61,991 nt of DNA from a virus. A program made the translations under genes and the position numbers. Shown piece after piece: positions 12,253-49,225 of the stretch. The stretch covers positions 1 through 61,991 of IMG/VR virus record IMGVR_UViG_3300030328_003511; one strand, 5' to 3'. How positions within the stretch are numbered: the stretch's first letter is position 1; every line of letters begins with the position of its first letter. The notes under the pieces were generated by a model. The model ran no database searches. It worked only from the letters and a program-made list of their open reading frames with translations, and was not told the DNA's origin.

Positions 12253-12680
12253 TTTTTCTTAGCTTTAATAAAAGGAAACTTTTGTCCTAGGGCTTCTATC
12301 GGTTTTTTAAACTCATAGTGATTTATAATTTTAAATAATTTTTCTCTTTTACTTACTGAATAAGGTATAAATAATTTTGCTAATTGAAGAGCTTTTTGGT
12401 GAGAGCATCGCCACCTCCATTGATCCTTTTTAGCTAGAGAACCTTTTGGAATTCCTTTAAAATTAATAGAGCCTACTTTAACAATATCATAAAAATTTTT
12501 TATACAATCTAAATCTGCCATAGCTATTTCCATTGCAATATTCCATTTAAGATAAACTTTACCACTTGGTTTTTTACATTTGTATTGCGCATAATTAATA
12601 TTACCTTCTCCATCAAATAATCCTGCAGCGTAAGCAATCATATCTTTGTTATCGTGTGGAAAATTTTTTTTATTTTGCAT
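12249..12680 (-). CDS. LAGLIDADG-type homing endonuclease
   Basis: A 143-residue protein with AYAAGLFDGEGNI at residues 16-28, the LAGLIDADG motif with its catalytic acidic residue, followed by WNIAMEIA and WRWRCSHQKALQL, typical of single-motif enzymes that act as dimers. It is free-standing, directly downstream of the DNA polymerase gene with an 11-base overlap. Such genes spread by cutting alleles that lack them, and the polymerase locus is a common target. Confidence 0.85.
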   Translation of the reverse strand: MQNKKNFPHDNKDMIAYAAGLFDGEGNINYAQYKCKKPSGKVYLKWNIAMEIAMADLDCIKNFYDIVKVGSINFKGIPKGSLAKKDQWRWRCSHQKALQLAKLFIPYSVSKREKLFKIINHYEFKKPIEALGQKFPFIKAKKN

Positions 12681-15137: not shown

Positions 15138-15366
15138 CTTTTATTTTTAAAATTTCTAGTTGGCAGTAGTGAATTATTTTTTCCAAATCTTCTATTTTAT
15201 TTTTAAATAAATATCTACAAACATACTTCACAACATTTCCTTGAAAGAAAGATAAGTTATTTTTACTTATAAATTCATAGGGCTGAATTTTAAAATTTTT
15301 ATAATGGTTTCCTCCGATTTGTTTATCTTGCGGAAAAGCATCTTCAAGTAAGTCTTTATTTGTCAT
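15127..15366 (-). CDS. DUF3310 family protein
   Basis: A 79-residue protein with QIGGNHYKNFKIQPYEFI and GNVVKYVCRYLFKNKIEDL, the complete signature of the DUF3310 (SaV-like) family, sometimes described as nucleotide-kinase related. It is common beside phage replication genes. It overlaps both neighbours by 11 bases. Confidence 0.85.
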   Translation of the reverse strand: MTNKDLLEDAFPQDKQIGGNHYKNFKIQPYEFISKNNLSFFQGNVVKYVCRYLFKNKIEDLEKIIHYCQLEILKIKDDK

Positions 15367-21362: not shown

Positions 21363-22065
21363 TATTGTGAAACTTTTCTACTCTTTCTAACCATTTGTCT
21401 TCATACTCTTTTAATTTTTCCTCATTCATTTTAAATTCTTGATATAAAATATCTTTAGTACAAATACATATAAGACCTTGAGTAATTGGACCGTATTGTT
21501 TTTTATGAGCTAACGAATAAGCTGCTATTTGATAATAATAATCTTCAACGTATTCTTCTCTCTTTGGTTTATTACTTTGTTTAAAATCTATAATAGTTGG
21601 TTGCTGATCATAAAGTCCTACAACATCAGTAGCCCCAGCCCATCTATCTTCATAAGCAAGACTTACTTCATTACCCCAAACAGTTTTTAACTTTTCTAAA
21701 TTGTTTACTATTTCATGAGCCATTAATCTTGCTTGAGCTCCATCTTGAGAAAGATTTAAATATCCTCGACCATCAATATAATTTTCAAGAACATAATGCA
21801 TTTCTGTTCCTCGAGTAGATGCTTGTTTAGTTATTCTAGCTGCTTCTGCATAGCCTACTCTTTCTCTCCATTTATCTAGTCCTTGTCTTTTTTCTAGAGA
21901 TTGAGTGGCAGATAGTATCGTAGTAACACTTGGTATTTTTTTATCACCTACATTATAGGTTCGTGAGCCATTCTCTTCTTGGCGGCTATATTTTTTATAT
22001 TTATATTTATTTTCTTTTTTAAGATCAGTAATTATAAATTTATTATTTTCTTTAAGTAGAAGCAC
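21313..22065 (-). CDS. PD-(D/E)XK (RecB/Cas4-like) exonuclease
   Basis: A 250-residue nuclease. KIPSVTTILSAT is the typical N-terminal motif, RGTEMHYVLENYI a helix with conserved His, GATDVVG and IIDFKQSN give the D...(D)xK catalytic core, and YYYQIAAYSLAH is the Q motif helix. This matches phage RecB-like exonucleases related to mitochondrial MGM101/MGME1-type enzymes. It probably processes DNA ends in recombination or degrades host DNA. It is convergent with the SNF2 helicase gene and overlaps its end. Confidence 0.85.
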   Translation of the reverse strand: MLLLKENNKFIITDLKKENKYKYKKYSRQEENGSRTYNVGDKKIPSVTTILSATQSLEKRQGLDKWRERVGYAEAARITKQASTRGTEMHYVLENYIDGRGYLNLSQDGAQARLMAHEIVNNLEKLKTVWGNEVSLAYEDRWAGATDVVGLYDQQPTIIDFKQSNKPKREEYVEDYYYQIAAYSLAHKKQYGPITQGLICICTKDILYQEFKMNEEKLKEYEDKWLERVEKFHNTKTTSEPVPQESEQKA

Positions 22066-27954: not shown

Positions 27955-28839
27955 TTACCTCTTCGTTATCAACTCATCCCCAAAACGACCTTCATAAGCA
28001 TGTTCGCCAATATGAACTATTCCCGACTTAACATAGGCATAACATTTACCACCTATATCTTTCCATAATTTACAAAAACTAAAATCTTCTCCTAAATATG
28101 TTTTAGTTTTAGGATCATGAAGACAATCAAAAAAATTCCACATATTTGGTCTATCTACATACTCACCATTTATAACTGTTTTTTGAACAATAGCTTTCTG
28201 TGGATAAGCTTTTATCATTTTTTCAAATACTGATCTTTTAATTAACATACATCCTGTTGGGCTGTGGGTTACTTCCATAACACCATCGTCCAGCATAATA
28301 CTGTTAGGGTTATCTACTTTCATAGGATAAGTGTTAAGCCATTTTTTTAAATCTTCTGGTTTTTTTACTTGGCCTTCTTGAATTTTTTTAAACAATTTAT
28401 CCCACATCATAGTCTTAAGAGGATAAGGTATAGATATTAATTCTTTATCTTTTTCAATCATCCTAAATATTGAAGGAGAGTGAAAGTATATATCTGAATC
28501 AATAAATAACATATGGGTATGATTTGTTTCTAAAAAACTAGATACACATAAATTTCTTCCTTGAGTAACCAAGGAAGACTTTAGTAAACAGAACTGAGTT
28601 TCAACACCTTTGTCTAAACCTAGTTTCTGTAATTCAAGTAATGCTTGTGCATAATGAATTGAACAGTCACTATGAACTGGAGTTGCTACAAATATTGAGT
28701 AATCAGCTTTTGATTTTTTTTCTTTAGCTTTATCTTTCCATAATGGAATAACTGCCTTTTGATCTGATTGAGGATCAGTTTTTATTTCAGTTAAAGTTTG
28801 ATAGGTGTCTTCATTTATAAATTGATTACTTTCTTTCAT
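27955..28839 (-). CDS. GT-A type glycosyltransferase
   Basis: A 294-residue protein. SIFVATPVHSDCSIHYAQAL starts a Rossmann-like fold, MLFIDSDIYF gives the DxD metal/nucleotide-sugar site, and GCMLIKRSVFEKM plus EDFSFCKLWKDIG follow as in family 2-like or ANP1-like enzymes. It is the partner of the GT-B gene upstream, with a 14-base overlap. The pair may glycosylate virion proteins or a host surface polymer; the acceptor is unknown. Confidence 0.8.
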   Translation of the reverse strand: MKESNQFINEDTYQTLTEIKTDPQSDQKAVIPLWKDKAKEKKSKADYSIFVATPVHSDCSIHYAQALLELQKLGLDKGVETQFCLLKSSLVTQGRNLCVSSFLETNHTHMLFIDSDIYFHSPSIFRMIEKDKELISIPYPLKTMMWDKLFKKIQEGQVKKPEDLKKWLNTYPMKVDNPNSIMLDDGVMEVTHSPTGCMLIKRSVFEKMIKAYPQKAIVQKTVINGEYVDRPNMWNFFDCLHDPKTKTYLGEDFSFCKLWKDIGGKCYAYVKSGIVHIGEHAYEGRFGDELITKR

Positions 28840-29755
28840 TTAAAGCTCCTCTTAAAAAACTTGTCCATTCTTGTCCTTTTTTATTCCAATTATAAAATCT
28901 TTTATAAAACTTTTGTTGTTCGTCTAAATGCTCTTGAATAAAATCTTCATGTAAATAAGTAGCGGCAGTTTTAATTGCTGCAGCGGTATCAATCGCCATT
29001 TGTTCATAGTTAGTAGAATAATTTATATATATAGGCCACTCAGCGCATGTTTCATATAAGGCTCCAAAATTATTTGTAATTACATGTACACCTGCCGTTA
29101 GTGCTTCTAATGCAGATACACAAGATGTTTCTTCAAATATAGAAGGATATACAAACATATCATAATTAGGCATTTGTTCTAAAATATATTCATTAGGTTT
29201 ATATCCAATATAATTTACATTGGGTAAACTCTTAGCTTGTTCATATAATGGTATGTACTCTTTATCATTAAGTTTACTAAACTCGCTACCATATACTTGT
29301 GAAGAAGAATACACATCTAATGTAATATTAGGATCTGTTATTTCCTGCATTGCCCTTAATACTATGTTTAAACCTCTCCAAGGAGTACAATGATGGATTA
29401 ATTTTATTGGATCACCTTTTTTATAAATTTTTCTTTTTGGAAAATGTTCACAGGCATTTTTAATTACAATAGATTTTTCTGTGGGAATATTAAAAAAGTA
29501 TCTAAACTTTTCATAATTCCAATGGCTATTAAAAATATACCAATCATATTCTTGGTGTCTTGGTTTATCTCTAAAAAATTTTTGAAGGTTTGGCTGATCC
29601 CAAGAATTTTTTTGCCAAAGAATATTTAGTTTATTAGGATCAAGTGGAACCTTACCGGGAATAGATGTACATATTTGTACTTGATCTAAAAGTTCTTTTG
29701 GGACATGCTTATAAAGCATTTCCATTTGAAGTTCAGTTGCACCTCTGGGTTTCAT
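28826..29755 (-). CDS. GT-B (GT4-like) glycosyltransferase
   Basis: A 309-residue protein. The C-terminal domain has HHCTPWRGLNIVLRAMQE, NVNYIGYKPNEYI and YPSIFEETSCVSALEALTAGVHVITNNFG, the full donor-binding ExxxxxxxEA motif of GT4-type enzymes. The N-terminal domain is shortened relative to bacterial members. It lies between small virion genes and the second glycosyltransferase. Confidence 0.85.
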   Translation of the reverse strand: MKPRGATELQMEMLYKHVPKELLDQVQICTSIPGKVPLDPNKLNILWQKNSWDQPNLQKFFRDKPRHQEYDWYIFNSHWNYEKFRYFFNIPTEKSIVIKNACEHFPKRKIYKKGDPIKLIHHCTPWRGLNIVLRAMQEITDPNITLDVYSSSQVYGSEFSKLNDKEYIPLYEQAKSLPNVNYIGYKPNEYILEQMPNYDMFVYPSIFEETSCVSALEALTAGVHVITNNFGALYETCAEWPIYINYSTNYEQMAIDTAAAIKTAATYLHEDFIQEHLDEQQKFYKRFYNWNKKGQEWTSFLRGALNERK

Positions 29756-33041: not shown

Positions 33042-33593
33042 CTAATTTTTAATTAAAGGTGCCCCTAAACTTACTCTTCTATCAAACTTATGCTCAGTAT
33101 ATGGCCCATCTTTATATACCCAATGTAAAAAAAGCTGCGCTTGTCCATCTCCTTGAAACTCTTCTCTCCAATGCTTTAGTTTTGCACCATGATATAAAGC
33201 AGCATCCCCGGGCTTTATAATTATTTTTTTATCTTCTACATGTAGAGGCCATTCAGTTCCACATCCACCTAGATTAATAGTAGCTGTAAGTTCACAACTA
33301 TCTCTATCTTTATGACTATCTAATACTGAATATTTAATATAGTACCTCCAAAAACTATAAGTAGGATGTAATTCTTTTTTAATTACTTCTTCAAATATTT
33401 TTGTTTTAAAGTGTAATAAAGTTTCCATAGCGGGATCAGCATAAAAAGCTGTTTCTCCTAATTTGGTTTGTTTATCATCAAAATTTGAAAAGTTATATGT
33501 ATGTCTCATTTGAGTATAAAAATTTAAAAACTTTAATTCTTCTTTACTCAAAACATTAGGCACATACCAAAAATTATCTTTTAATACATCCAT
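33042..33593 (-). CDS. 2OG-Fe(II) oxygenase-like protein (HxD type)
   Basis: A 183-residue protein with SHKDRDSCELTATINLGGCG, then KPGDAALYHGAKLKHWRE. HxD with the distal His after the GDA(L/A).Y.G loop is the phytanoyl/prolyl-hydroxylase-like pattern; the usual Arg/Lys is less clear. It overlaps the following oxygenase gene by 13 bases, so two oxygenases are coupled in one operon within tail genes. Confidence 0.75.
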   Translation of the reverse strand: MDVLKDNFWYVPNVLSKEELKFLNFYTQMRHTYNFSNFDDKQTKLGETAFYADPAMETLLHFKTKIFEEVIKKELHPTYSFWRYYIKYSVLDSHKDRDSCELTATINLGGCGTEWPLHVEDKKIIIKPGDAALYHGAKLKHWREEFQGDGQAQLFLHWVYKDGPYTEHKFDRRVSLGAPLIKN

Positions 33594-34144
33594 GAGACCA
33601 CTACATATCGCTTTCCAGAAATAAGAGGCTTAACCTTATGAGGAAAAAGTGTGTTACTAGGCCATACAATTAACCTACCTCCTTTTGGAGTTATTTCTTT
33701 AATTAATTCTTCTCCGTCAAAAAATTGTAAATCCCCTCCTTTATAATCATCATTTAGCATTAAAATAAAAGATAATTCTCTATATGCCGTAGGACAACAA
33801 TCTACATGTTTATTATAATGTCCTCCTACTTCATATTTTAAAATTGAAACATTAGTTACATTCTTTATTTGAGAAACATATTTATATTTGTTTGTAAAAT
33901 CAGCTCCTGCTTGAGAAATTCTATAAGATAAATATCTTAACCAATGAGTTTCAGTGTGACTTTTATTTGTACCTAAAGGATATTCTCCAACCTTTCTATC
34001 TTCTTCATTTATAATTTCAGTTCCATCATCTTTAATTATTTTTGCTTGTATAAACTCTGAATCTTTAAATGTTCTTATTATTGCAGAAACTGATTCTAAT
34101 GAAATAATATTATCATAAATTCTTATATATTTTTCTAATCCCAT
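33581..34144 (-). CDS. Prolyl-4-hydroxylase-like 2OG-Fe(II) oxygenase
   Basis: Around 187 residues, with YNKHVDCCPTAYRELSFILML and GGDLQFFDGE, then RLIVWPSNTLFPHKVKPLISGKRYVVVSW. HxD, a distal His after FPH and a Lys/Arg in GKRY complete the site, the clearest P4H-type match among the ten. The start at 34144 has GGAAAAG upstream; 34159 is an alternative. It may hydroxylate virion proteins. Confidence 0.85.
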   Translation of the reverse strand: MGLEKYIRIYDNIISLESVSAIIRTFKDSEFIQAKIIKDDGTEIINEEDRKVGEYPLGTNKSHTETHWLRYLSYRISQAGADFTNKYKYVSQIKNVTNVSILKYEVGGHYNKHVDCCPTAYRELSFILMLNDDYKGGDLQFFDGEELIKEITPKGGRLIVWPSNTLFPHKVKPLISGKRYVVVSWMY

Positions 34145-34881
34145 TGTTTTCTTTTCCATATGTTGTCTCTATACCATCTTTTAAGTTTTGTAGCATATTG
34201 AAAATAACTGGATTCATATTGTTCTTTATTTTTAATTTTAATATTCATTTTCCATTTTTCTCTTTTAAAAGGAATAACTCCAACTATTGGTTCTCCTTTT
34301 TTTAAAAGCCAAGTACCTTTTTTTCTTAATACTATTGGAAAATTAGTAGGAAGATCATAACCTTCATCTACAATTCCAGATAAAACCGTGAACCGTGGTT
34401 CTGGTCTATTTATTAAAGGACAAAATAAAACACTATAACCTGGAGGTAATACCATACTAAAAGGATTTATTATTTTATAGAGAGCTCTATCGGCATTCAT
34501 TTTAACAAAAGGACATCCACCCTCTGTTCCTCCAAGCTGCTCAATTGGATGGGTTTCTATTCCTGCATTAATATTATAAAATAATTGATTATGTTGTAAG
34601 TATGCTAATTGTTTATTGATATCTACAGAAATATGCTCATTACCATCTTCATCTGGTGTTAGGAAATTAAACTGTTGATCTATTGGATTTTTTAAAATGT
34701 ACCCAGCCATTAAAGAATCTTGAAATGGCATACAAGCTTTTATAGTTAATCCTACTCTATCATGTTTAAGTTTAAGTGGAATTTTTTTATACCATTCTGG
34801 TAAATGTAATTTAGCTGGTTCCGGCTGAATAGCCTTATCTTCTGCAATATCCTTTGCAGCAAGGAATGTAATGTCTGGCAT
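34135..34881 (-). CDS. DUF6065-like phage protein, 248 aa
   Basis: A 248-residue protein with EPAKLHLPEWYKKIP, then IKACMPFQDSLMAGYIL and PPGYSVLFCPLINRPEPRFTVLSGIVDEGYD, a beta-rich cupin-like arrangement like DUF6065 proteins that lie by marine phage tail genes. No catalytic residues can be assigned with confidence. The GC-richer CGTGGTTC word lies inside (34394-34401), encoding NRPEPRF. Confidence 0.7.
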   Translation of the reverse strand: MPDITFLAAKDIAEDKAIQPEPAKLHLPEWYKKIPLKLKHDRVGLTIKACMPFQDSLMAGYILKNPIDQQFNFLTPDEDGNEHISVDINKQLAYLQHNQLFYNINAGIETHPIEQLGGTEGGCPFVKMNADRALYKIINPFSMVLPPGYSVLFCPLINRPEPRFTVLSGIVDEGYDLPTNFPIVLRKKGTWLLKKGEPIVGVIPFKREKWKMNIKIKNKEQYESSYFQYATKLKRWYRDNIWKRKQWD

Positions 34882-35328: not shown

Positions 35329-36513
35329 TTAACTTATATGGTTATCAATTACAATTAAGAATCCAGCTGATTGTGAAGCTCCACCAGGAGCCATAAATCC
35401 ATCATCTGCATCTAAAGTTATTGTTGCACTTGGAGCCGTACCAGCTGTGCCCGGAGAGGGAGTAAATGGAGGAGATCTTCTTCCTCCTGCTCCACCGTTT
35501 CCGCCGTTTACAGTTAATAAGTTTGTAACTTCTGTTGCACCACCAGCATTTCCAGCAGGTGCATTTCCACCCGAAGCATTTCCATTGTTTCCTTGAGATC
35601 CAACAGAATAAGCATAACCAGTTCCACCAGTAGGAGTGACTTCGTAATAACCATAGCCACCTTTTCCACCAGTTCCCCCAGAACCCCAACCTTGTGAAGG
35701 CCCACCGTTTCCGCCACCGCCAGCACATGCAAAAATTCTTGCTTTACTTACTGATGGATGTGGAGTGTATGTTCCAGATGCAGGTCCTTTTGTCATTATT
35801 ACCTCTCCCATATTTGCTGCACTTACTGTTCCCGAAGAGGCTGCAGTAAGTCTTCCCTGTGCATCAACTGTAATTGAAGCAAGAGTGTATGAGGCTGCTG
35901 TTACAGCAGTGTCTGCTAATTTATCTGCAGTTACTGCATCGTCTGCAATTTTAGCAGTAGTTACATTTTTATTTGAAATATGTGCAGTCAATACTGCATT
36001 GTCTGAGATAGCTACACTTAAAATTGCATCATCATCAATTTTAGCTGCAGTTACTGCATCGTCTGCAATTTGTGCAGTTCCAATAGTTCCACCTAAAGTA
36101 TCTAGAGATACTTCTACAATGTTTGTGCCATTTGAATAAGCAGCATAAATTTTTGCGGCATCTGGAGTAAATCCAGTTCCACTTGCAGTTTTAATTGTAA
36201 GATTACTTGGATTCGTTAAAGCTGTACAATCAAAAATATAAAATTTTTCTATTGAATCTGGGATGGTACAAATTGTGCTTGCAGCAATTGAAGCTGAAGC
36301 AAATTTAATTACCATATTTCTAGCATTAGAAATAGTTTTATCAGTCATTGCTAAAGCTAAAGTTCCACCACTTGATAGTGTTACTTGCTCGTATCCTGCA
36401 ATAGCTTGTTGTATTAAATTTAAATTGTTATTAGTGTTATCGCCCCAAGTACCAGCATTTTCACCGGTTACCATTAATTCTAATTTTAAGTCTGCCGAAT
36501 AAGTAGATGTCAT
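35329..36513 (-). CDS. Tail fibre with glycine-rich adhesin tip, 394 aa
   Basis: The N-terminus TSTYSADLKLELMVTGENAG and TWGDNTNNNLNLIQQAIAGY is the standard fibre-attachment module of marine phages. The middle has repeated IADDAV/ISDNAV units (residues 147-205), forming a shaft. The C-terminal 150 residues are Gly-rich (CAGGGGNGGPSQGWGSGGTGG) with conserved aromatic positions, like polyglycine-sandwich adhesin tips. It probably contacts the host receptor. Confidence 0.85.
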   Translation of the reverse strand: MTSTYSADLKLELMVTGENAGTWGDNTNNNLNLIQQAIAGYEQVTLSSGGTLALAMTDKTISNARNMVIKFASASIAASTICTIPDSIEKFYIFDCTALTNPSNLTIKTASGTGFTPDAAKIYAAYSNGTNIVEVSLDTLGGTIGTAQIADDAVTAAKIDDDAILSVAISDNAVLTAHISNKNVTTAKIADDAVTADKLADTAVTAASYTLASITVDAQGRLTAASSGTVSAANMGEVIMTKGPASGTYTPHPSVSKARIFACAGGGGNGGPSQGWGSGGTGGKGGYGYYEVTPTGGTGYAYSVGSQGNNGNASGGNAPAGNAGGATEVTNLLTVNGGNGGAGGRRSPPFTPSPGTAGTAPSATITLDADDGFMAPGGASQSAGFLIVIDNHIS

Positions 36514-36552: not shown

Positions 36553-38199
36553 TCAAGCTGCCAAATCAACCTCATGCCAAATATTAGTAACTCCAATATC
36601 TATTTCACCCCATGCGGTAATATCTACCTCTCCTGTGGAAGCTGTAAATTGTATGCCTGTTACTTCTACAGTAGCATGTCCCGTGATTGTTGTCGATCCT
36701 ACGCTACCTGTAATCTGAGATCCTGTTACACCAACAATTTGGTCTGGAACCTCTTCTGCATCACCAATAGTTAATGTACCTTGAATTCCAGTAGGAGCTT
36801 CAATTGTTGATTGGATTAAATTAATACTACCAAGACTCGTTGTAGCTTGAGAACCCGTAACTGGAACATCTTGTCGTGTTCCACCTACTACTGTTCCAAC
36901 TGAAAAAGTAGATTGACTTCCAGTAACGGAAACAGTCGCATCCCCAGTTATACTTGATGATCCTATTGTAAAATCTAATTGATCTTCAGAAGCTAATACA
37001 AATATATCTTGGTCTATTTGAATAGAGAATGAAGGACTTGCAAAAGTCATGTTAACTTGAGAACCACTAACTATTGCCAAATTATCAGTAAATGCTCCCG
37101 ATGCCGGGAAATTTATAGATGAAGTTAATTGTTGGCCTGTCGCTATTGCTGAATATGCGTCACCCCAAGCTAAGTTACCCCAAGTTCTTCTACCCCATCC
37201 AGCTCCAGTTAACCATTCGTCATCAATTGTAGCTGTACCTATACTTGAAGATAAAGTTCCTGCTGTTGTAACTGGAACTATTATTTCAATTACTTCTTCT
37301 CCCATTGAAGAAGTTAATTGTTGTCCTGTTACTGTTTGATCAACAGAAGTTCCACCTACTGCTCCTGCATTTGTAAGTGTTGTTTGCATTCCAGATAATG
37401 AAATGTTAGCATCAGCACCCATAGTTACTGATCCTATTGAAGATGTAAGTTGTGAACCAGCTGCAATTGGATTAGATCCCGATAGATCTCCCCATTCATT
37501 TTCATTCCAAGTATCTCCACCCCAACCAACTTGAATAATACCTGCACCCTCTACTGATCCTATTGAAAAAGTTGCAGAAACAGATCCAAGATTTATTATT
37601 TTACCAAGACCAGCTGTAGTGTTACCTTGCGATAATGTTGCAGCAATACCTGTTAATGTTTGATCAACAGAAGTTCCGCCTACGGCTCCAGCATTTGTAA
37701 GTGTTGCTTGTATTCCAGATACTGAAACATTAGCTTGACCAAAAGGTGTTTCGTTTCCGATTGAAGATGTTAATGATAAGCCCGCTTGTGATATATTTAC
37801 TTGACCTTGTTCACCCCAACCAGTATGGCCCCAATATAAACCACCCCAAGAGTTTGCGGTTAAATTTAAAGTTCCACCCATACCGGAGTCGTCTACCTCA
37901 TAATAGTACATAGTTAACGGAGGGCCAACTTCCGTTACAACAAATTGAGTGTAAGCTCCTGCTTGACCAGGAGTTCCAACTAATGTAACACCTGTCGTAT
38001 AGTCTGAACCCCCACCGTGAGTACCATCTGAAGTTGTAGAAATTTTTAAAGTATAACCTGCGTTTGAAGCATCTGATTGATCAAAACGATAGGTAGCCCC
38101 ATAAGCTAACGGGACAGCAGCTTGTAGGGCTCCGTCTATATAAAATTTGTTACCCGATCCAGGGTTAGAAACTGTAACAGTAAATGTTGTGTATGACAC
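36553..38199 (-). CDS. Repetitive tail/fibre protein, 548 aa
   Basis: The N-terminal 110 residues read FYIDGALQAAVPLAYG and GATYRFDQSDASNAGYTL, then YYYEVDDSGMGG, a cupredoxin-like module whose usual His and Cys ligands appear replaced. After it come many copies of a 30-40 residue repeat (SGSQLTSSIG..., VTGSQATTSLG), with WG-rich linkers such as NSWGGLYWGHTGWGEQG. Repeats differ mainly in loops. It is probably a long fibre or tail decoration. Confidence 0.8.
   Translation of the reverse strand: MSYTTFTVTVSNPGSGNKFYIDGALQAAVPLAYGATYRFDQSDASNAGYTLKISTTSDGTHGGGSDYTTGVTLVGTPGQAGAYTQFVVTEVGPPLTMYYYEVDDSGMGGTLNLTANSWGGLYWGHTGWGEQGQVNISQAGLSLTSSIGNETPFGQANVSVSGIQATLTNAGAVGGTSVDQTLTGIAATLSQGNTTAGLGKIINLGSVSATFSIGSVEGAGIIQVGWGGDTWNENEWGDLSGSNPIAAGSQLTSSIGSVTMGADANISLSGMQTTLTNAGAVGGTSVDQTVTGQQLTSSMGEEVIEIIVPVTTAGTLSSSIGTATIDDEWLTGAGWGRRTWGNLAWGDAYSAIATGQQLTSSINFPASGAFTDNLAIVSGSQVNMTFASPSFSIQIDQDIFVLASEDQLDFTIGSSSITGDATVSVTGSQSTFSVGTVVGGTRQDVPVTGSQATTSLGSINLIQSTIEAPTGIQGTLTIGDAEEVPDQIVGVTGSQITGSVGSTTITGHATVEVTGIQFTASTGEVDITAWGEIDIGVTNIWHEVDLAA
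37334..37415. repeat. Internal coding repeat, copy 1
   Basis: About 82 bases closely match 37658-37739, at an offset of 324 bases (108 codons). Both encode the protein stretch ATLTNAGAVGGTSVDQT or its near copy in the repetitive tail protein. DNA-level identity implies a recent duplication or gene conversion. Confidence 0.7.
37658..37739. repeat. Internal coding repeat, copy 2
   Basis: The partner of 37334-37415 within the same repetitive tail gene, with a few synonymous-looking differences. Confidence 0.7.
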
Positions 38200-39840: not shown

Positions 39841-39925
39841 GATATTTCCTTCCTATTAAAAAGCCAATTCCAAAACTAATTCCAATAACCGTACAAATAG
39901 CTAAGATATGATATACCCAAAACAT
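39821..39925 (-). CDS. 34-aa membrane microprotein
   Basis: A 34-codon frame MFWVYHILAICTVIGISFGI, then GFLIGRKYHELRIR. The start overlaps the stop of the connector gene (TAATG). A single hydrophobic span with a basic C-terminal tail is obvious. It may be a membrane peptide made with the connector proteins. Confidence 0.55.
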   Translation of the reverse strand: MFWVYHILAICTVIGISFGIGFLIGRKYHELRIR

Positions 39926-40620
39926 TATACCCCATCACCAAAATAAGTTTGAGGAGAAATGTAAACAGAAGCTCTTTGACCGTCTTCGTTTAATGCTCTT
40001 AGTAACTCGTCTTCATAAAGTTGTTTTAATAATTGAACTCTTTCTAAAGATTTTTTTATAGATAAATAGTATGCCAGTCCTGCACACATACAAGGTAAAA
40101 ATCTGTAAGCAACGTCTGCTTGGTTTGTATAAGAACCAGCATCTTCAATTCTATTAATTGTATAAAATTTTACGTAAGTGTATGTATTTGCATCCGGTGC
40201 TAAATATAAATTAATTTTAGGATCACCTAATCTATCAACATAATATTGAGAAGGTTGTCCTGTTGAATACTTATTAGGTACAGCTGCGTATGCAGATCTA
40301 TCAATTTTTGTTAATGCTATATCGTTGGTTTCAGTATTATTAGATCCAGTTGCTGTTGTAGAAATATAAGCTTCTAAAACATCATTTACATTGGAAGCTA
40401 CCGTATAAGTAGCTTGTCCTGCAACTAATTGTTTTTCATCTAGTGTAACTTTCCAAAGATGAATTCCTCTATTTCCCCATTCTGCAAAAAGCAAATCTAA
40501 ACTTCTTCTAGCACTTTTTAAATCATAGCCACTATTAGTTCGCATCCCACATCTCTCGTAGGCTTCCTCAATAATAGTATCAATATCTAAATTGAATGAT
40601 GTAGTTCCAGAAGTTCCCAT
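39925..40620 (-). CDS. P22 gp4-like head-tail adaptor
   Basis: A 231-residue protein with DTIIEEAYERCGMRTNSGYD, ARRSLDLLFAEWGNRGIHLWKV, and a C-terminal helical segment RVQLLKQLYEDELLRAL. The N-terminal motif EEA.ERCG...tg.d...A.rsL..L...W.NRG is the hallmark of gp4-type adaptor proteins below the portal. Spacing from the portal is 17 kb. Confidence 0.8.
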   Translation of the reverse strand: MGTSGTTSFNLDIDTIIEEAYERCGMRTNSGYDLKSARRSLDLLFAEWGNRGIHLWKVTLDEKQLVAGQATYTVASNVNDVLEAYISTTATGSNNTETNDIALTKIDRSAYAAVPNKYSTGQPSQYYVDRLGDPKINLYLAPDANTYTYVKFYTINRIEDAGSYTNQADVAYRFLPCMCAGLAYYLSIKKSLERVQLLKQLYEDELLRALNEDGQRASVYISPQTYFGDGV

Positions 40621-40626
40621 AGATCA

Positions 40627-40896
40627 TTAGATTAAATCTTTGATGTAATCTCCACCTTTTAGAATTTCATAGTTCTGACCTGGTTTTAACTTCTCATCTT
40701 GTAATCCCATTCCAGAAGTTCTAGCCGCACCAAATCCTCTTGTAGAAACGTGTGCACCTGTAGATGCTTTTTTAATTTCACTAACTACTCTTTTTTTCTC
40801 TGATTTAAGATTTTTCTTACCTTTTTTTGTCCATGCTTTTTCAGCATCAACACGACCTAGTTCTTCTAGTTCGTTCATTTTCTTTGTATTTGACAT
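40627..40896 (-). CDS. Small basic virion-block protein, 89 aa
   Basis: A basic protein with VDAEKAWTKKGKKNLKSEKK and STGAHVSTRGFGAARTSGMG. The C-terminal GFGAARTSG resembles the GAAxRG-type tails of other small proteins here. It may be a DNA-binding virion component. Confidence 0.65.
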   Translation of the reverse strand: MSNTKKMNELEELGRVDAEKAWTKKGKKNLKSEKKRVVSEIKKASTGAHVSTRGFGAARTSGMGLQDEKLKPGQNYEILKGGDYIKDLI

Positions 40897-40948
40897 TATA
40901 TTCTCCTTTAATTTATAATTTATTTATTTTATCACTTTGTATACGTCA

Positions 40949-41173
40949 TTAAAAGATCCCCTTAAATCCAGTTCCTCTAACCGCTGCTCCAGAACCGGGA
41001 ACCCTAATTTCTCCCCCATGACTCTTTTTCTTAGGTTTTTTCTTTGGGATAATTGTCCAAGGTGGTAAATCTCTTGATTCAGCTGTAAGACCGGGATTAT
41101 GTTTTCTTAAATAAGCTTCCCCTTCTTTTGTACCTAAATCAATAACTTTCTTTTTTTTATTTTTACTACTCAT
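40949..41173 (-). CDS. Small basic protein with GAAVRG tail, 74 aa
   Basis: A lysine-rich protein ending SHGGEIRVPGSGAAVRGTGF then KGIF. The tail closely resembles GMGAAIRGHKFTGVK in the protein at 55904-56971. Overlaps the upstream gene by 8 bases. Confidence 0.65.
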   Translation of the reverse strand: MSSKNKKKKVIDLGTKEGEAYLRKHNPGLTAESRDLPPWTIIPKKKPKKKSHGGEIRVPGSGAAVRGTGFKGIF

Positions 41174-41426
41174 CTACCATTCCTTTATAATAGCTTGTTA
41201 AATTCTTATTACTTACTTCGTGTCCCGCTAAATTACCTTTAAGGTAAGAACCATTATAAGGTTGTAAGTTATTTACGAACATAGAAGGTTTAGCAGTAGT
41301 CGTGGCAAATTGAGCACGGCCCATGGCTGCTTTATATACAGGTATACCTTCTTTTTTAGCATAAGCTTTCGCTTCAGCTTTGCCTTCTTTCGTATAAGCA
41401 AATTTCTTATTTCCTACGTGTGGCAC
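41166..41426 (-). CDS. Conserved small marine phage protein, 86 aa
   Basis: It starts at a GTG with AAGGAGGAATA in front. The N-terminus MPHVGNKKFAYTKEGKAEAK then AYAKKEGIPVYKA is a pattern recurring in small marine phage proteins. It is basic and probably virion-associated. Confidence 0.7.
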   Translation of the reverse strand: MPHVGNKKFAYTKEGKAEAKAYAKKEGIPVYKAAMGRAQFATTTAKPSMFVNNLQPYNGSYLKGNLAGHEVSNKNLTSYYKGMVDE

Positions 41427-41572: not shown

Positions 41573-42154
41573 TTAATTACCTTCGTATCCTTTTTCTTTA
41601 TCTACTTGATCCACGACAGCTTCTTTTTCTATTATGTCAGTGACTGTAAGATTACCCGCATATGATTCTGTCCCACTTGATTTTTTTACCATGTGTTCAA
41701 TGAAGCTTGGGAATATTACTATCTGTCCTGGTCTGAATTCTGATTCATAGCTTACTGGAAAAAATTTATCTTTACCTACTTCTCCATAAAATGATTCTAG
41801 AATAAATTTATGAGGTGCAAAAAAAACAGTTTGTGAGCCACCTTTAACATACACAATAAAACTAAAATGAGATCCAGCATGAATATGATTTTCTTGAAAA
41901 TCATCTTTAATATATTTATTTCTCCAAATCCCTTGTAAATTAATTTTTGATTTAGCTGGAAGAATAGGCATTAACATATGACATATTTTTGTCATAAGAG
42001 TATTATAACTATGCGAAGTAAGTTTATTTCCTTGGTTAAAAGAACTATTAGTATTAGAAAACCATTTGTTATTCATTTTAGGAGATTCGAGCTCTATATC
42101 ATCTAAATTTATAGTAGATACGAATAAAGGTACTTCAAATAAGTTTAATTTCAT
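41573..42154 (-). CDS. 2OG-Fe(II) oxygenase-like protein (HxH type)
   Basis: A 193-residue protein with QENHIHAGSHFSFIVYVKG, then FRPGQIVIFPSFIEHMVKKSSG. Paired His, and distal His after FPS(F/L)IEH, match the group; the C-terminal Arg position holds YAGN instead, so it may be divergent or use another residue. It starts in ATGA overlap with the carbamoyltransferase, tying it to the halogenase cluster. Confidence 0.75.
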   Translation of the reverse strand: MKLNLFEVPLFVSTINLDDIELESPKMNNKWFSNTNSSFNQGNKLTSHSYNTLMTKICHMLMPILPAKSKINLQGIWRNKYIKDDFQENHIHAGSHFSFIVYVKGGSQTVFFAPHKFILESFYGEVGKDKFFPVSYESEFRPGQIVIFPSFIEHMVKKSSGTESYAGNLTVTDIIEKEAVVDQVDKEKGYEGN

Positions 42155-43752
42155 TTTTTTATAATTAATGTGTTTATATCTGCAAGATATGCATATTTTA
42201 AATTAGTTTCAAGCATCATATTTTTTAAATCATTTAAATCTTCAACTATAGGTAAACCGGGCTTGTTTAAAGAAGTGTTTAAAAGAAACGGAATATTATA
42301 GATATCATTAAATGCTTTTATCAAGTCATAAAAGTTATTATTTTTTTCTCTTTTAAGCTCTTGCACTCTAGATGTTCCTTGAGGACAAGTAACATTTTCT
42401 AAATGATTCTTTTTAGTTTCTTTAACATTAAATACATTCATCATAAATTCTGCGCTTCGATTTGTATCTCTTATAAAGTATTCTTCAAAATATTCTGATA
42501 AAATTGTACAAGCAAAAGGTCTATACCATTCTCTTTTTTTTATTGTGTTAATTTTATCAATACAAGTTAGATTAGTAGCATTCATTAAAAGACTTCTATT
42601 ACCTAAAGCTCTTTGTCCTTGTTCTGATCTTCCTTGAAATAAGGCTACAGGTTCATCAAAAAGTATTTTAGCTACTTCTCCTTCAGTAACTTTTTTTATA
42701 TTAAATTTTGTAGTAAATAGATTTAAATCATAATTAGGTTTAAAACCTAAATAACAATGATTAGGTCTTTCAAGTTTATGTTCTAAAAAATAATTTAGAT
42801 GGCCTAAAGAAATACTTTGATCATTACATATAGGATCAACAAAAACATCAAAATTGAATGACTTTGAAATATCAGTATTAATTAATATATTCTGGGCAAC
42901 ACCTCCGGTTAATGTTACGGGTCCATTAATATTTAAATCTTTAAAATATCTTCTAGCTACAAACTCACAAGATTTTTGAAAAGTAAAAGCAAAATTTTGA
43001 ACGTTTATATTTTTTAAATCTACATTATTAGGTAAATTTCTTTCTTTTTCCCATGCCTTATCGGGTAAAAGAAACTCTTTAGGAAAATAAATATCATCGG
43101 TAAAAATTTTATTCATACATTTCTCTTGATACTTACCATATGATGATAAGGCCATTGCTTTACCTTCTGAGAAAATATCATGTTTAAATAAACCCAATGC
43201 TCTTGTTAAATGAGAATAGGCTTCTCCTATTCCTAAATTCTTTTCTGAAATACTAAATCCTTTAGATTCATACTTAGAAATATCTGGATTAAATAAATAT
43301 TTATAAAGATTATTTACATTATTGTCATAATAACTGGTTTGTTCTACACCTCGTTTATCTCCATGGTGAAATATTGTTCCGTTACCATCCCAAACTAAAT
43401 AATTTGTATTTTTTTGAAAAGATTGAGCGCAAGATGCATGAAATTGATGATGTTCTTCTGATATAATAACTTTTGTTTTTTTTCTTAAGAATTGTTTAAA
43501 AAATTTAACAGGACTATGCTCCTCTAAGATTAATTCAACCCATAACTCTAAAACACTATTCGAAAGATGAGAAAATAAAATTACATCAAAAACTATATTT
43601 AAATCAGCAATCTTTTCTAATAAACCCACGGTAGGTAAAGCATGATGTTTTAATTTATTAAATCTACTTATTTCTGTATGAATAATTAATTCATTACCTT
43701 GAGATATAGAAATAGAACCATCGTGTGAAGCATGAATAGAAAGTACGTTCAT
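42151..43752 (-). CDS. NodU/CmcH-family carbamoyltransferase
   Basis: A 533-residue protein of nearly full family length. The Kae1-like domain has HASHDGSI, ISEEHHQFHAS (metal His), VWDGNGT, NLGIGEAYSHLT and TLTGGVAQNILIN. The YrdC-like/C-terminal domain has QGRSEQGQRALGNRSLL, REWYRPFACTILSEYFEEYF and FLLNTSLNKPGLPIVE. These enzymes move a carbamoyl group from carbamoyl phosphate and ATP to a hydroxyl; known substrates include Nod factors and cephems, and phage homologs have been reported to act on hydroxymethylcytosine. It is flanked by and coupled to an oxygenase and a halogenase. Confidence 0.9.
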   Translation of the reverse strand: MNVLSIHASHDGSISISQGNELIIHTEISRFNKLKHHALPTVGLLEKIADLNIVFDVILFSHLSNSVLELWVELILEEHSPVKFFKQFLRKKTKVIISEEHHQFHASCAQSFQKNTNYLVWDGNGTIFHHGDKRGVEQTSYYDNNVNNLYKYLFNPDISKYESKGFSISEKNLGIGEAYSHLTRALGLFKHDIFSEGKAMALSSYGKYQEKCMNKIFTDDIYFPKEFLLPDKAWEKERNLPNNVDLKNINVQNFAFTFQKSCEFVARRYFKDLNINGPVTLTGGVAQNILINTDISKSFNFDVFVDPICNDQSISLGHLNYFLEHKLERPNHCYLGFKPNYDLNLFTTKFNIKKVTEGEVAKILFDEPVALFQGRSEQGQRALGNRSLLMNATNLTCIDKINTIKKREWYRPFACTILSEYFEEYFIRDTNRSAEFMMNVFNVKETKKNHLENVTCPQGTSRVQELKREKNNNFYDLIKAFNDIYNIPFLLNTSLNKPGLPIVEDLNDLKNMMLETNLKYAYLADINTLIIKK

Positions 43753-45125
43753 TAATAATATTTTAAAATTAAATCTATCGCAGCTCGGTGTCCTATTTTA
43801 GGACTTGTCCTATTAAAAGCTACAAAATTTTCTGTATCTTGTATCACTTTTGACTGTAAATTTAAAGGTAGATTTTCAAAAGCAGTTTTAATTTGATCAT
43901 TATTAAAATAATTTAAGCCATGTAAAACTTCAATATAGTTTCCTACTTCAAATAAACCGTAAGGCACAATTACATCTTCTTCTGTAGGCAAATAAGATTT
44001 CCACTTTTTTAATTTTTCATCTAGTTCTTTGTCTATGGTGCCGTTTAACTCACTCTTCAAATAATGTAATTGTATAAATTCTACTAACTGATCAAAAACC
44101 TTATCTATTAAATCATTATAAGATTTAGAATTATTTCTATGATACATATCTATAAACATAAAAACTTGATTAATGGTACTACCAATAGAAGTTGCTTCTA
44201 AGGGTTCAACAAACATTGCTGAAAGACCAACTGATAAACAATTTTTATTCCATATCTTTTCTAATTTTCCAGGATAAAAATTAAATTCTCTTTTACCTTT
44301 TGAAATTAATTTTTTAGTTTCATCATTGATTAAGCTATCGTTATAGACCACACCATTACCGGTTCTATCTTGTGCAGGAATTTTCCAAACCCATCCTCCA
44401 GTAACTTTTTGTGCTAGGGTCCACGCATTGTATTCCTCTAGTTTTTCTGTTTGAAATGCAACAGCTTTATTACAAATTAATTTATCTGAATAACTTTTCC
44501 ATTTTGATTTATTTAAAAGTCTTTTAAAACCTGTGCAATCAAAATAAAAATTTGAAATATATTTTTGATTACCTTTTATAAAATTTATTTTATCTGTTTC
44601 ATTTACTTCAGTAATAATGTCATCAATAATTTTAATCTCTCTACTAACTGCTAACTTATTCAAAAAATCATTTAGCTTAAATGTATCAAAATGATACTGA
44701 TTTACAGGAGATTGATTTGGGTTTTCTAAAAAATTAGGATAGAACTGATTATCAAAATAACATTGATCGCTTAAAGGTGTATTTAAATTATTACCTATAT
44801 GATGTAAATAATATGGTTTAGTTTTAAACCAGTTATTATCATGGAATGAAGATCGTGTGTGTAAAAAATTTTTATTAGACCAGTCTTTAAAATGAATACC
44901 TGCTTTAAAAGTTGCGCCAGAATGTTTTAAAATATCGTAAGGCTTTATTCCAATATAATTTATAAAAGACGTAAATTCTTTTGTAGATCCTTCACCAACA
45001 CCTATGATTCCTATTTTATCAGATTTAATTAAACCTATAGATGTTTCCGGATAAGCTGATTTAAGTATTAAAGCTGTTACATATCCAGCTGTTCCTCCAC
45101 CTACAATTAAAAAATCAAAATTCAT
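43752..45125 (-). CDS. Flavin-dependent (tryptophan-type) halogenase
   Basis: A 457-residue enzyme. FLIVGGGTAGYVTAL (6-20) is the FAD-binding GxGxxG; GVGEGST (42-48) is the family motif; FKAGIHF (73-79) contains the catalytic-type Lys; GGWVWKIP (243-250) contains the diagnostic WxWxIP; and FVEPLEATS (305-313) contains the catalytic-type Glu. All key residues are present, so an active FADH2-dependent halogenase is expected, though the substrate may not be free tryptophan. It shares one base with the carbamoyltransferase gene. No flavin reductase is visible, so it would use host FADH2. Confidence 0.9.
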   Translation of the reverse strand: MNFDFLIVGGGTAGYVTALILKSAYPETSIGLIKSDKIGIIGVGEGSTKEFTSFINYIGIKPYDILKHSGATFKAGIHFKDWSNKNFLHTRSSFHDNNWFKTKPYYLHHIGNNLNTPLSDQCYFDNQFYPNFLENPNQSPVNQYHFDTFKLNDFLNKLAVSREIKIIDDIITEVNETDKINFIKGNQKYISNFYFDCTGFKRLLNKSKWKSYSDKLICNKAVAFQTEKLEEYNAWTLAQKVTGGWVWKIPAQDRTGNGVVYNDSLINDETKKLISKGKREFNFYPGKLEKIWNKNCLSVGLSAMFVEPLEATSIGSTINQVFMFIDMYHRNNSKSYNDLIDKVFDQLVEFIQLHYLKSELNGTIDKELDEKLKKWKSYLPTEEDVIVPYGLFEVGNYIEVLHGLNYFNNDQIKTAFENLPLNLQSKVIQDTENFVAFNRTSPKIGHRAAIDLILKYY

Positions 45126-45627
45126 TTATATTAGTTTTATTAAATACTTCTTTTGTAGATTGTTTTGTTAAAAGTTCAAGATTTAAAGATATTCTTTGTT
45201 CATCACTGTCTGAAACATTGGGATGATGCCATAGGGTACTTGGAAATATTAGAAGTTCATTTTCAACAGGAATATAATTTATTACTTTACCATTATCTAA
45301 AAAATCTATTCCTTTTTCATTATTTCTTACTTTTAAATAAATTACTCCATTTATATTAGCTGTCTTTTCATGATTGTGCCAATTGGTAGAAGAAAAATTT
45401 TTATCAGATACTGAGCACCAAACCAGTAACTCTTGCTGTATTAATTCAAACTCTTTAAAAAGACTTTTACATTTTTCCTCAAAAAGTAAATATAACTCTT
45501 TTCTAAATCTTGTATTTAAATTAAAATTAAAACCATTAGGATCAATAGTTCTTTTTTCCAGTATTTCTTTTATAAGCTCTTCTTTAAATGGTAATGATAT
45601 TTTAAAACTATGTATGTCTTTTATCAT
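45115..45627 (-). CDS. 2OG-Fe(II) oxygenase-like protein (HxH type)
   Basis: A protein of about 170 residues with STNWHNHEKTANINGVIYLKV, then LLIFPSTLWHHPNVSD and EQRISLNLEL. It is similar to 14541 and 46594. The ATG at 45627 is preferred over a TTG at 45642. It overlaps the halogenase gene by 11 bases, so it likely belongs to the same pathway. Confidence 0.8.
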   Translation of the reverse strand: MIKDIHSFKISLPFKEELIKEILEKRTIDPNGFNFNLNTRFRKELYLLFEEKCKSLFKEFELIQQELLVWCSVSDKNFSSTNWHNHEKTANINGVIYLKVRNNEKGIDFLDNGKVINYIPVENELLIFPSTLWHHPNVSDSDEQRISLNLELLTKQSTKEVFNKTNINEF

Positions 45628-46096
45628 AAGGTATATAGACAAAATTTATTACAATTCTTCTTTTACTATTAGTAGTTGTAGTTCCAGTATGCTTTGTATT
45701 AGAGTTTATAATTAATAATTTATTTTCTTCACTTTTTATAATTTTTTCACCAACTCTACAATACCCATCACAGTTATTTATAAAAAATATTGCCGATTTT
45801 AATTTACTATCATCACTATCTATATGCTCTCCTGTTTCTATAATCTTTGAAGTTTGCCAATTTAAATTACCTTTTATTCTTAAAAATTGTTGGGCTGGTA
45901 TTTCTTCTAAAATTGGTTGTAGTATTCCAGTATATGAACTTGGAATATTTTTGTATAAAAAACTATGTACTAATTGGGGTTCTGAATTTGGATGTGTAGA
46001 ATAGTCGTTGTAGTACCATGGAAAAGTAGTAGCTTCTATTTGTTCTTTAATATTTTTAAAAACAGTATTGGGTAAATAATTCTCAATAATTTTCAT
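45608..46096 (-). CDS. 2OG-Fe(II) oxygenase-like protein (HxD type)
   Basis: A 162-residue protein with TGEHIDSDDSKLKSAIFFIN then NNCDGYCRVGEKI, and SNTKHTGTTTTNSKRRIVIN. HxD, distal His and Arg are all present. It is the first gene of the halogenase cluster. It resembles the 9734 and 48685 proteins in the NNCDGY/NTCDGY/LTNCDGG segment. Confidence 0.8.
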   Translation of the reverse strand: MKIIENYLPNTVFKNIKEQIEATTFPWYYNDYSTHPNSEPQLVHSFLYKNIPSSYTGILQPILEEIPAQQFLRIKGNLNWQTSKIIETGEHIDSDDSKLKSAIFFINNCDGYCRVGEKIIKSEENKLLIINSNTKHTGTTTTNSKRRIVINFVYIPYDKRHT

Positions 46097-46105: not shown

Positions 46106-46591
46106 TTAGCCTACTACTTTACCGTCTTTCCATTCCATTTCTGGTAAACCATTTTCGAATTTTTTTCCATCGTAAGTGAGGATTTGTTTTCTATTAGCAC
46201 CTTTTTCATTATAGGACACGTGCACCCAGCCCCCTGCTGGATCATCTGGGTTATAGAACTCGAGAATTAATTGATCAAAGTCTACGTTATTAGAAAGCCA
46301 GTAAGCCGTCTTAATATTTGGAACACCAGCTATTTCAAAATCAACCGCCTGCCCCTTAGCATGCTGACTCGTTTTTTTGCTGCCGATCGCCTCACAAAGC
46401 GCCTCGGAGCGGTAGCCCGATGTAATAGTAATAGGCTTATCAAAATGAGCTCTAACTGGTTCTAATATTTCGTAGCATACGTTTTCTAAATTTTTTATAT
46501 CTCCAGATCCTGGAGAGTTATCAATGCCTTTTCGTGTAGCGGTCATTGATTTAGTAAATTCTTCTAGTTTAAAATGTTTTGATAATTGCAT
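46106..46591 (-). CDS. Peptidase M15 endolysin (DD-carboxypeptidase-like)
   Basis: A 161-residue enzyme starting QLSKHFKLEEFTKS, with TSGYRSEALCEAIGSKK, SQHAKGQAVDFE (His77, Asp84) and GWVHVSY (His124), the zinc ligands and acid of M15_3 peptidases. It would cut peptidoglycan cross-links and serve as endolysin. There is no signal sequence, so it needs a holin. It lies at the boundary of the lysis block and the halogenase island. Confidence 0.9.
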   Translation of the reverse strand: MQLSKHFKLEEFTKSMTATRKGIDNSPGSGDIKNLENVCYEILEPVRAHFDKPITITSGYRSEALCEAIGSKKTSQHAKGQAVDFEIAGVPNIKTAYWLSNNVDFDQLILEFYNPDDPAGGWVHVSYNEKGANRKQILTYDGKKFENGLPEMEWKDGKVVG

Positions 46592-46593: not shown

Positions 46594-47115
46594 TTAAAAA
46601 TCTTTAATTGGATCTCCATTAAATGACAAAGCATATTTTGGAGTTTGGGTTAAATTACGATTTGCATAATGTCTTAGTATACCATCAAATAGGACAAATT
46701 TCCCCCTTGCTGGAACTACTTCTTTTTTAATTTCTGGAAAATATAATGTTTGATTAACATCATTCAAATATATTACACCAGAGCAAACACTTGGGATATG
46801 ATCATGCTCTTTTGTTCTACCAGAATAAGCTTCTTCAAGTCCCCATACTTCATTAATTTTAAAATTACGTAGCTTCATTATTTTCTCCAACTCATTCATT
46901 ATTGGCCACATCACCTCCCAAAATTTTTGATCCTTTAAAAAGTAAGTCCAATCTGTCATACCCCCATGAACATTTGTTCTAAAACTCCAATTACCCTCTT
47001 TGTGAATACCTTCTTTTATTTTATCTATAAAATATTCAGCATCAATATTACAAAATCCTTCTAAGAAAAAATAATCTTTTTTAACTTGAGATTGAATAAG
47101 GGTATTGATCTTCAC
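46594..47115 (-). CDS. 2OG-Fe(II) oxygenase-like protein (HxH type)
   Basis: A 173-residue protein with TKEHDHIPSVCSGVIYLND, then KFVLFDGILRHYANRNLTQT and KYALSFNGD. It shares SGVIYLN and the distal His pattern with 14541, and Lys in place of Arg. It sits between the endolysin and a membrane microprotein. Confidence 0.75.
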   Translation of the reverse strand: MKINTLIQSQVKKDYFFLEGFCNIDAEYFIDKIKEGIHKEGNWSFRTNVHGGMTDWTYFLKDQKFWEVMWPIMNELEKIMKLRNFKINEVWGLEEAYSGRTKEHDHIPSVCSGVIYLNDVNQTLYFPEIKKEVVPARGKFVLFDGILRHYANRNLTQTPKYALSFNGDPIKDF

Positions 47116-48684: not shown

Positions 48685-49206
48685 TTAATAATAATTTAAA
48701 TTAATATAATATCTTACCATTGAGTTATTGTTTCTAACAGACCTATGCAAAATTTTTGGATTAAAAATCAATATCCTATTTTCTTGGGATTTAACAAATA
48801 TTTCTTTATTATCTACCATTAAATGAGTTCCACCATCACAATTAGTAAGATTAAGAATAGCTGTAAAATTTCCAGTCAAATTATCTGTGTGATAATTTGA
48901 AGCATGGTTGATAAAGAGTTCTTTAAGCATTAAATTTGCTCTTGCTTGAATAAGAGCTTTTGCATTTAATTGTTTCATAATGGGAATAATTAAAGGATCG
49001 TATAATTCACTTGAACTTTTAAAATCATTAAAAAAATTGTAAGTAAAATATCCGTTATCAACTTCACTTCCCGGGCCTACTGTCATTCTAGGTCGTCTTC
49101 GCCACGGAAAATCTTGATCTGTAATTGTATCTTTTAAAAAATTAAAAAAATCTTGTTCAAGAAAATTATCAATAATGTTGTAGGTAAATTGATTATTATT
49201 TTCCAT
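48685..49206 (-). CDS. 2OG-Fe(II) oxygenase-like protein (HxD type)
   Basis: About 173 residues, with SNYHTDNLTGNFTAILNLTN then NCDGGTHLMVDN and LIFNPKILHRSVRNNNSMVRYYIN. HxD, a distal His and a C-terminal Arg are present. It lies immediately downstream of the head genes and their hairpin (49226-49266). I start at MENNNQF (49206); 49224 is an alternative. Confidence 0.8.
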   Translation of the reverse strand: MENNNQFTYNIIDNFLEQDFFNFLKDTITDQDFPWRRRPRMTVGPGSEVDNGYFTYNFFNDFKSSSELYDPLIIPIMKQLNAKALIQARANLMLKELFINHASNYHTDNLTGNFTAILNLTNCDGGTHLMVDNKEIFVKSQENRILIFNPKILHRSVRNNNSMVRYYINLNYY

Positions 49207-49225
49207 TACAGAAAATAATAACATC

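Follow-up and report, generated by a model that had tools for sequence, protein, structure and literature searches.

A late-region cassette of halogenase, carbamoyltransferase and oxygenase genes in an HTVC023P-type pelagiphage, with a late virion protein as its tentative substrate

The IMG/VR virus record IMGVR_UViG_3300030328_003511, analysed here over positions 1 to 61,991 and referred to below as the window, contains a cassette of five genes on the minus strand running from 46096 to 41573. In transcription order they are oxyC (45608-46096, 162 aa), a 2-oxoglutarate (2OG)-Fe(II) oxygenase of the PHROG 274 family; oxyB (45115-45627, 170 aa from its ATG), a PF13759-type oxygenase-like protein; Hal (43752-45125, 457 aa), a flavin-dependent halogenase of the tryptophan type; NodU (42151-43752, 533 aa), a NodU/TobZ-type O-carbamoyltransferase; and oxyA (41573-42154, 193 aa), a PF13759-type oxygenase-like protein that is the constant partner of NodU. 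A first-pass annotation of this DNA had described five tightly overlapping genes, and all five open reading frames (ORFs) are intact at their predicted coordinates, with overlaps of 20 bp (oxyC/oxyB), 11 bp (oxyB/Hal), 1 bp (Hal/NodU) and 4 bp (NodU/oxyA), these figures taking as the oxyB start the ATG at 45627, which its relative in the viral locus L002 uses, and not an upstream TTG. The GC (guanine plus cytosine) content of each cassette gene is 24-29%, compared with 32.7% for the whole window, and the values in L002 and in a further related locus, L010, are much the same. Ratios of nonsynonymous to synonymous substitution rates (dN/dS) against L002 are roughly 0.14-0.32, rough values with dS near saturation, and third positions hold most of the changes; this purifying selection indicates that the genes are maintained and are not chance ORFs. 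Promoter and terminator scans gave signals not clearly above chance.

Hal matches PF04820 (Trp_halogenase) at 235 bits (cut-off 21; E = 1.5e-69), and the four halogenase motifs quoted in the first-pass annotation are all found in it, including the flavin adenine dinucleotide (FAD) motif GxGxxG (GGGTAG at residues 9-14) and WxWxIP (WVWKIP at 245-250). Its catalytic Lys and Glu regions align with YKLGIRF and FVEPLEST of PyrH; K74, E310 and the glycines G9, G11 and G14 are invariant across 51 phage halogenases, while W245, I249 and P250 are conserved in the phage homologues. The AlphaFold2 model of Hal has a predicted local distance difference test score (pLDDT) of 93.6, and a Foldseek search of the PDB with it returned tryptophan halogenases as the top matches (TM-score 0.78-0.87), the best being 2pyx at 0.87. 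Hal is approximately 55-80 residues shorter than the halogenases of free tryptophan, and on the halogenase tree it falls in a phage-only clade of 75.

The carbamoyltransferase is recognised by Pfam through both of its domains, Carbam_trans_C (PF16861, 154 bits, 2.8e-45, cut-off 27) and Carbam_trans_N (PF02543, 38 bits, 2e-9, cut-off 24), and it matches PHROG 1601 ('Nol-like') at E = 9e-98. Its score of 81.7 bits against the NCBIfam equivalog for NodU proper (NF041651) lies far below the 1000 bits set for that model. The protein combines a Kae1-like N-domain with a YrdC-like C-domain that hold conserved His, Asp and Arg columns, and residues H101, H102, H105, D122 and D311 together with the C-terminal YrdC-like motifs are invariant in 10 homologues, from which carbamoyl transfer is predicted.

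The only cassette oxygenase with the canonical HxD...H...R arrangement is oxyC, in which H91-x-D93, H136 and R147 are invariant in 25 homologues; it has no Pfam match but scores 125 bits against PHROG 274 (E = 5e-36) and shows a weak profile match to the prolyl hydroxylase PHD2 (E = 0.086). The name given to PHROG 274, 'DNA endonuclease V', seems to be wrong, as its aligned members show the HxD...H...R of 2OG oxygenases; the window has genes of this family at 45608-46096, 48685-49224 and 9734-10243. Both oxyA (40 bits) and oxyB (34 bits) exceed the cut-off of 27 bits for PF13759 (2OG-FeII_Oxy_5), and they carry HxH...H, invariant in 20 relatives, in place of the canonical HxD/E...H. A PDB sequence search with oxyA gave no match. 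Its AlphaFold2 model (pLDDT 81.7), based on an alignment drawn from the window and the scanned loci alone, has a double-stranded beta-helix fold with query TM-scores of 0.45-0.55 to the top PDB matches; the best of these are the uncharacterised family structures 3bvc and 2rg4 and the 2OG oxygenase 6n1f, followed by the ribosomal oxygenase YcfD, FIH and JmjC. The oxyB protein is 64% identical to the product of the same-position gene in L002, and no homologue beyond L002 was found in the viral contig scan. Hence the Pfam and PHROG matches bear out the enzyme identities first assigned to the five genes, and 'oxygenase-like' was an apt wording for oxyA and oxyB.

By its capsid and late genes the virus is an HTVC023P-type pelagiphage: the capsid protein is 92.5% identical to that of Pelagibacter phage HTVC023P, and 3.85 kb of the late region align with HTVC023P at 81.8% DNA identity and with the same late gene order. 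This likeness, and the isolates HTVC023P and HTVC027P, point to SAR11 as the probable host. The cassette lies between two features shared by such phages. On its left is the gene for an M15 peptidase endolysin (46106-46591, minus strand; PF08291, PHROG 894), separated from the cassette by 9 bp, and on its right (39925-41426, minus strand) are genes for small Lys-rich proteins and a tubular-type protein (39925-40620), the same genes that follow the endolysin directly in relatives. In HTVC023P itself (L117), the endolysin gene precedes those for small basic proteins and then the tubular gene, and no halogenase, NodU or oxygenase lies in between, which makes it an empty site. Cassette-type genes were found at this site only in the window, L002, L010 and L093 (NodU alone), where the insertion begins 9, 5, 10 and 5 bp past the endolysin stop, respectively, so that co-transcription with the endolysin late in infection appears likely. 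The site was surveyed in 80 loci gathered around the tubular gene, among which NodU occurs in one and Hal in three; in those showing both endolysin and tubular gene, 0-3 kb separate the two, filled mostly by small ORFs and occasionally by a 2OG gene, and never by NodU or Hal. Since gene content at the site varies in this way among relatives, the cassette is a variable and exchangeable insertion.

The gene neighbourhood recurs in other phages. The order in L002 is oxyB-Hal-NodU-oxyA-second Hal, while L010 has another 2OG gene followed by NodU-Hal-oxyA on a contig that ends short of the tubular gene, and in L092 a NodU-oxyA pair lies elsewhere in the genome. NodU directly adjoins oxyA, in both orders, in nine of the 15 loci around oxyA relatives; with the window, L010 and L092 added and the contigs of the L002 phage merged, this adjacency is seen in approximately ten contigs, six of which also have a halogenase. 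In L295-L297 the pair opens an overlapping operon of eight genes, NodU-oxyA-cupin-2OG-Hal-2OG-2OG-ferrochelatase-like (families as annotated in L296, 3559-10866), whose NodU and oxyA are 41-44% and 34-38% identical to those of the window and whose Hal is only ~31% identical. Thus the association of NodU-oxyA with a halogenase is not merely a matter of shared descent, and the divergence of these three halogenase sequences into another subfamily implies a separate joining. More broadly, NodU-linked halogenases fall in several separate places on the halogenase tree, and a 2OG gene lies within 1 kb of 71 of 110 dereplicated phage halogenases versus four of 127 bacterial ones (neighbourhood counts uncorrected for relatedness), the 2OG density around the phage genes falling with distance, being 0.71/kb in the first kilobase and 0.10/kb at 6-8 kb. 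A bacterial origin of the cassette was considered and rejected, as the 80 nearest bacterial halogenase loci are without it; two of these loci contain NodU, more than 5 kb away and on the other strand, and four contain a 2OG gene. The absence of conserved co-occurrence in related genomes had been named beforehand as a result that would speak against a joint system, and the gene orders in L002, L010 and L295-L297 show the opposite. The cassette is therefore real, conserved and functional-looking, a variant assembled from known phage gene families.

We propose, tentatively and as something short of probable, that the five genes are an exchangeable tailoring cassette which an HTVC023P-type pelagiphage expresses late and whose likeliest substrate is a late protein, with a Gly-rich tail adhesin or tail fibre as the first candidate. 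The cassette is drawn from a recurring marine-phage gene set of 2OG oxygenase plus halogenase, joined by the NodU-oxyA pair. An oxygenase, most likely oxyA, would make a hydroxyl group that NodU would then cap with a carbamoyl group using carbamoyl phosphate and ATP, an order that the constant NodU-oxyA pairing fits. Hal would halogenate an aromatic ring, probably that of a Trp or Tyr residue, with chloride or bromide from seawater and with reduced flavin that would come from the host, as no flavin reductase was recognised among the proteins scanned, and oxyB and oxyC would hydroxylate further positions. Such a modification would alter the adsorption, stability or protection of the virion. That the five genes belong to a single pathway, as first suggested from their overlaps, is supported by these results, and we infer further that the five enzymes act on one substrate. 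It is possible, if rather doubtful, that they form a viral post-translational system in which an interchangeable cassette serves to hydroxylate, O-carbamoylate and halogenate the amino-acid side chains of tail or virion proteins. A protein target is favoured by the late position, which has a parallel in the 2OG-Hal pair amid the terminase genes of HTVC008M, by the resemblance of the oxygenases to protein hydroxylases and by the lack of recognised scaffold-building genes: the proteins scanned included no recognised scaffold-building enzyme (nonribosomal peptide synthetase or polyketide synthase) and none for the modification of nucleotides. The candidate substrate itself is a Gly-rich tail-fibre tip protein (35329-36513, minus strand; PHROG 31104 and tail-fibre matches) with 42% Gly over a 60-aa stretch that includes Trp and Tyr. 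Gly-rich adhesin genes are found near many phage halogenases, and the L296 operon starts ~20 bp after tail-fibre and Gly_rich_2 genes. A separate tail-fibre protein (36553-38199) has Trp-Gly-rich stretches (GWGRRTWGNLAWGD, NSWGGLYWGHTGWGEQ) and is a possible halogenase substrate.

Several observations weigh against this proposal. The usual 2OG-binding Arg is missing from oxyA and from the three proteins most closely related to it, and with neither this residue nor the Asp ligand of the canonical site, the hydroxylase activity of oxyA is uncertain; PDB fold matches, moreover, over-represent protein hydroxylases. Gly-rich fibres adjoin the late module in halogenase-less phages as well, including HTVC023P in the tubular-gene control, so that the fibre link is not halogenase-specific and is a hint rather than a test, and the assignment of the substrate rests on inference. 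HTVC023P-type phages have insertion hotspots at two sites, the tail region being a general one, and in a count made without selection NodU lies within 4 kb of five of 30 well-flanked phage halogenases, a moderate link. The last two points are also what would be expected if the genes were loosely linked metabolic genes of unrelated functions that share an insertion hotspot, a reading to which the ~nine 2OG-type oxygenase genes spread over the whole window lend themselves; 2OG oxygenases that modulate 2-oxoglutarate or nitrogen status, for example, have been proposed for cyanophages (PMC3037559). We regard it as improbable, since the genes overlap tightly, NodU and oxyA pair repeatedly and in either order, and halogenases of different subfamilies have been recruited to this pair.

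The main rival is a small-molecule pathway, in which a host metabolite such as free tryptophan or another indole or phenol would be turned into a halogenated, carbamoylated compound directed at the host, at competing phages or, upon lysis, at neighbours. The tailoring of small molecules is a classic role of flavin halogenases and of carbamoyltransferases of the TobZ/GdmN type, and among solved structures it is these that come closest in sequence. Joint transcription with the endolysin gene could set the moment of product release, related phage islands combine two to five halogenases with 2OG oxygenases (one of them, L003, adding radical-SAM-, aminotransferase- and amidinotransferase-like genes), and the cyanophage halogenase VirX1 accepts many small aromatics (PMC8407142). 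Against this, the window proteins scanned, those of the cassette included, provide no recognised scaffold-building enzyme, the genes are placed among late and structural genes, and in their folds the many small 2OG oxygenases are similar to protein hydroxylases; on balance we consider a small-molecule product somewhat unlikely. NodU and TobZ act on sugar-containing acceptors, and NodU could instead carbamoylate a sugar hydroxyl of a host-envelope polysaccharide or lipid, or of a virion sugar, for example to block superinfection. A glycosyltransferase-like gene is present at 28826-29755, but it is 12 kb distant, late timing is unsuited to superinfection exclusion, and halogenases require an electron-rich aromatic ring, which sugars do not have, so that modification of a glycan or the cell surface is hardly to be expected. 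We know of no flavin enzyme that halogenates DNA, and the cassette lies in the late module, not in the replication module. DNA hypermodification has a precedent in sewage phages, where carbamoyltransferases of the same superfamily make 5-carbamoyloxymethylcytosine (PMC8670742), and an 80-genome survey of HTVC023P-type phages places thymidine-hypermodification genes in clades V, VIII and IX (PMC9599517). The carbamoyltransferase of phages with 5-hydroxymethylcytosine (5hmC), however, works with a thymidylate-synthase homologue encoded beside it, and carbamoyltransferases on unmodified contigs are without a partner of that type (PMC8670742). A search for a homologue of thymidylate synthase (PF00303) or dCMP hydroxymethylase found none in the window and none in eight related records, of which several are short fragments. 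The DNA base that the first-pass annotation had listed among the possible targets is therefore very improbable.

Returning to the window, two further oxygenase genes lie upstream of the cassette on the minus strand, outside it and accessory to it: oxyD (46594-47115), upstream of the endolysin gene, is of PF13759 type (29.8 bits) and has homologues in L002 and L010, and oxyE (48685-49224) belongs to PHROG 274 (E = 7e-30) and is 65% identical to its counterpart in L002. A PF13759 oxygenase gene at 14541-15137 is located inside the replication module, with a one-base overlap with the DNA polymerase gene (12670-14541). A ferrochelatase-like gene in 33042-34159 overlaps a 2OG oxygenase gene downstream of the tail-fibre genes, a pairing already reported for HTVC023P-type phages (PMC9599517), and PHROG 'ferrochelatase' families recur beside phage halogenases, with 15 and 9 matches in a set of 110 neighbour proteins. 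The small Lys/Arg-rich late proteins of HTVC023P-like phages end in a C-terminal motif like YYK[DG][LI][LIM], seen in ~40 of the scanned loci including HTVC023P (for example the window at 40627-40896 and 41166-41426, L002 at 13182-15633, L117 at 21081-21726, and L218 and L256). Its role could be to mark internal virion proteins for encapsidation or targeting; the YYKD[LI] tags on the neighbouring basic proteins were rejected as halogenase substrates, since they are present in halogenase-less phages. Other arrangements were also seen in the scan. L041 (2963-10874) and its relatives L032, L083 and L089 have 2OG-2OG-NodU-2OG-2OG-2OG-Hal followed by SGNH-like and HAD-type genes (assigned partly by eye), and L026, L027, L029, L045, L055 and L081 are phage islands that pack four or five divergent halogenases, together with several 2OG oxygenase genes, into ~17 kb, the L045 contig also holding a T4-type capsid gene. 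The phage contig L003 (736-15787) resembles a small-molecule cluster, with a tandem pair of halogenase genes, 2OG genes, two genes of radical-SAM-like type, one aminotransferase-like and one amidinotransferase-like gene (last assignments by eye).

Halogenase and 2OG-oxygenase genes are numerous in marine phages, and their purpose has been a question since 2010 or earlier. The present cassette, which is compact and late in position, has a constant NodU-oxyA pair and comes with empty-site relatives and alternative halogenases, provides a defined set of proteins for direct substrate tests. If a virion protein is the target, no earlier case of halogenated side chains in a viral protein is known to us, and a protein-modifying cassette would be carried by some of the most abundant phages of the ocean, where SAR11 are the commonest bacteria. 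If instead the product is a metabolite, lytic phages would be shown to make a halogenated product at lysis. The first-pass annotation considered the system undescribed. This stands for the operon itself and for halogenase and NodU in HTVC023P-type phages, of which we found no description in the open-access literature (searched for pelagiphage or SAR11 halogenases and for phage halogenase with carbamoyl genes; most subscription journals lie outside this coverage). It does not stand for the enzyme types, as Sullivan et al. in 2010 (PMC3037559) already listed individual cyanophage genomes that hold prnA, carbamoyltransferase and several 2OG genes at once, and a cyanophage with 24 oxygenases is known (PMC9602691).

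The enzymes of the cassette compare with known systems as follows. Hal has in common with PyrH, PrnA and BrvH (PF04820) the fold, GxGxxG, WxWxIP and the catalytic Lys and Glu, yet structural alignments with them give 20-26% identity and they are ~510-540 aa long versus 457 aa. We know of no described Syn10 operon that contains NodU. VirX1 of cyanophage Syn10 (PDB 6QGM), a characterised viral halogenase (PMC8407142), shares the core motifs (E = 2.6e-28), but as a match to Hal it ranks below many bacterial enzymes, and the halogenase place of Syn10 is ~28% identical to Hal. The nearest annotated phage homologues are the halogenases of P-SSM2, S-H38 and HTVC008M (35-40%), several of which adjoin 2OG genes, the 2OG-Hal pair of HTVC008M sitting between the terminase subunit genes and overlapping terL; these phages are without the five-gene operon, and in P-SSM2 and HTVC008M NodU is located elsewhere in the genome. 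NodU has both domains, the conserved His and Asp and the YrdC-like motifs in common with the TobZ/GdmN/NodU O-carbamoyltransferases, and it is ~25-34% identical to phage copies in GenBank. It belongs to the same enzyme family as the phage 5hmC carbamoyltransferase, but its partners are oxygenases and a halogenase in place of a thymidylate-synthase-like protein. As for the phage, HTVC023P has a genome of 60,878 bp versus the 61,991 bp of the window, and the 80-genome survey (PMC9599517) covers the same phage group; its main text makes no mention of halogenase or carbamoyl genes, whereas the 2OG oxygenases and ferrochelatase-like gene that it records are also in the window. Hence the kinds of enzyme are known ones, and their combination and setting are new as far as we have found.

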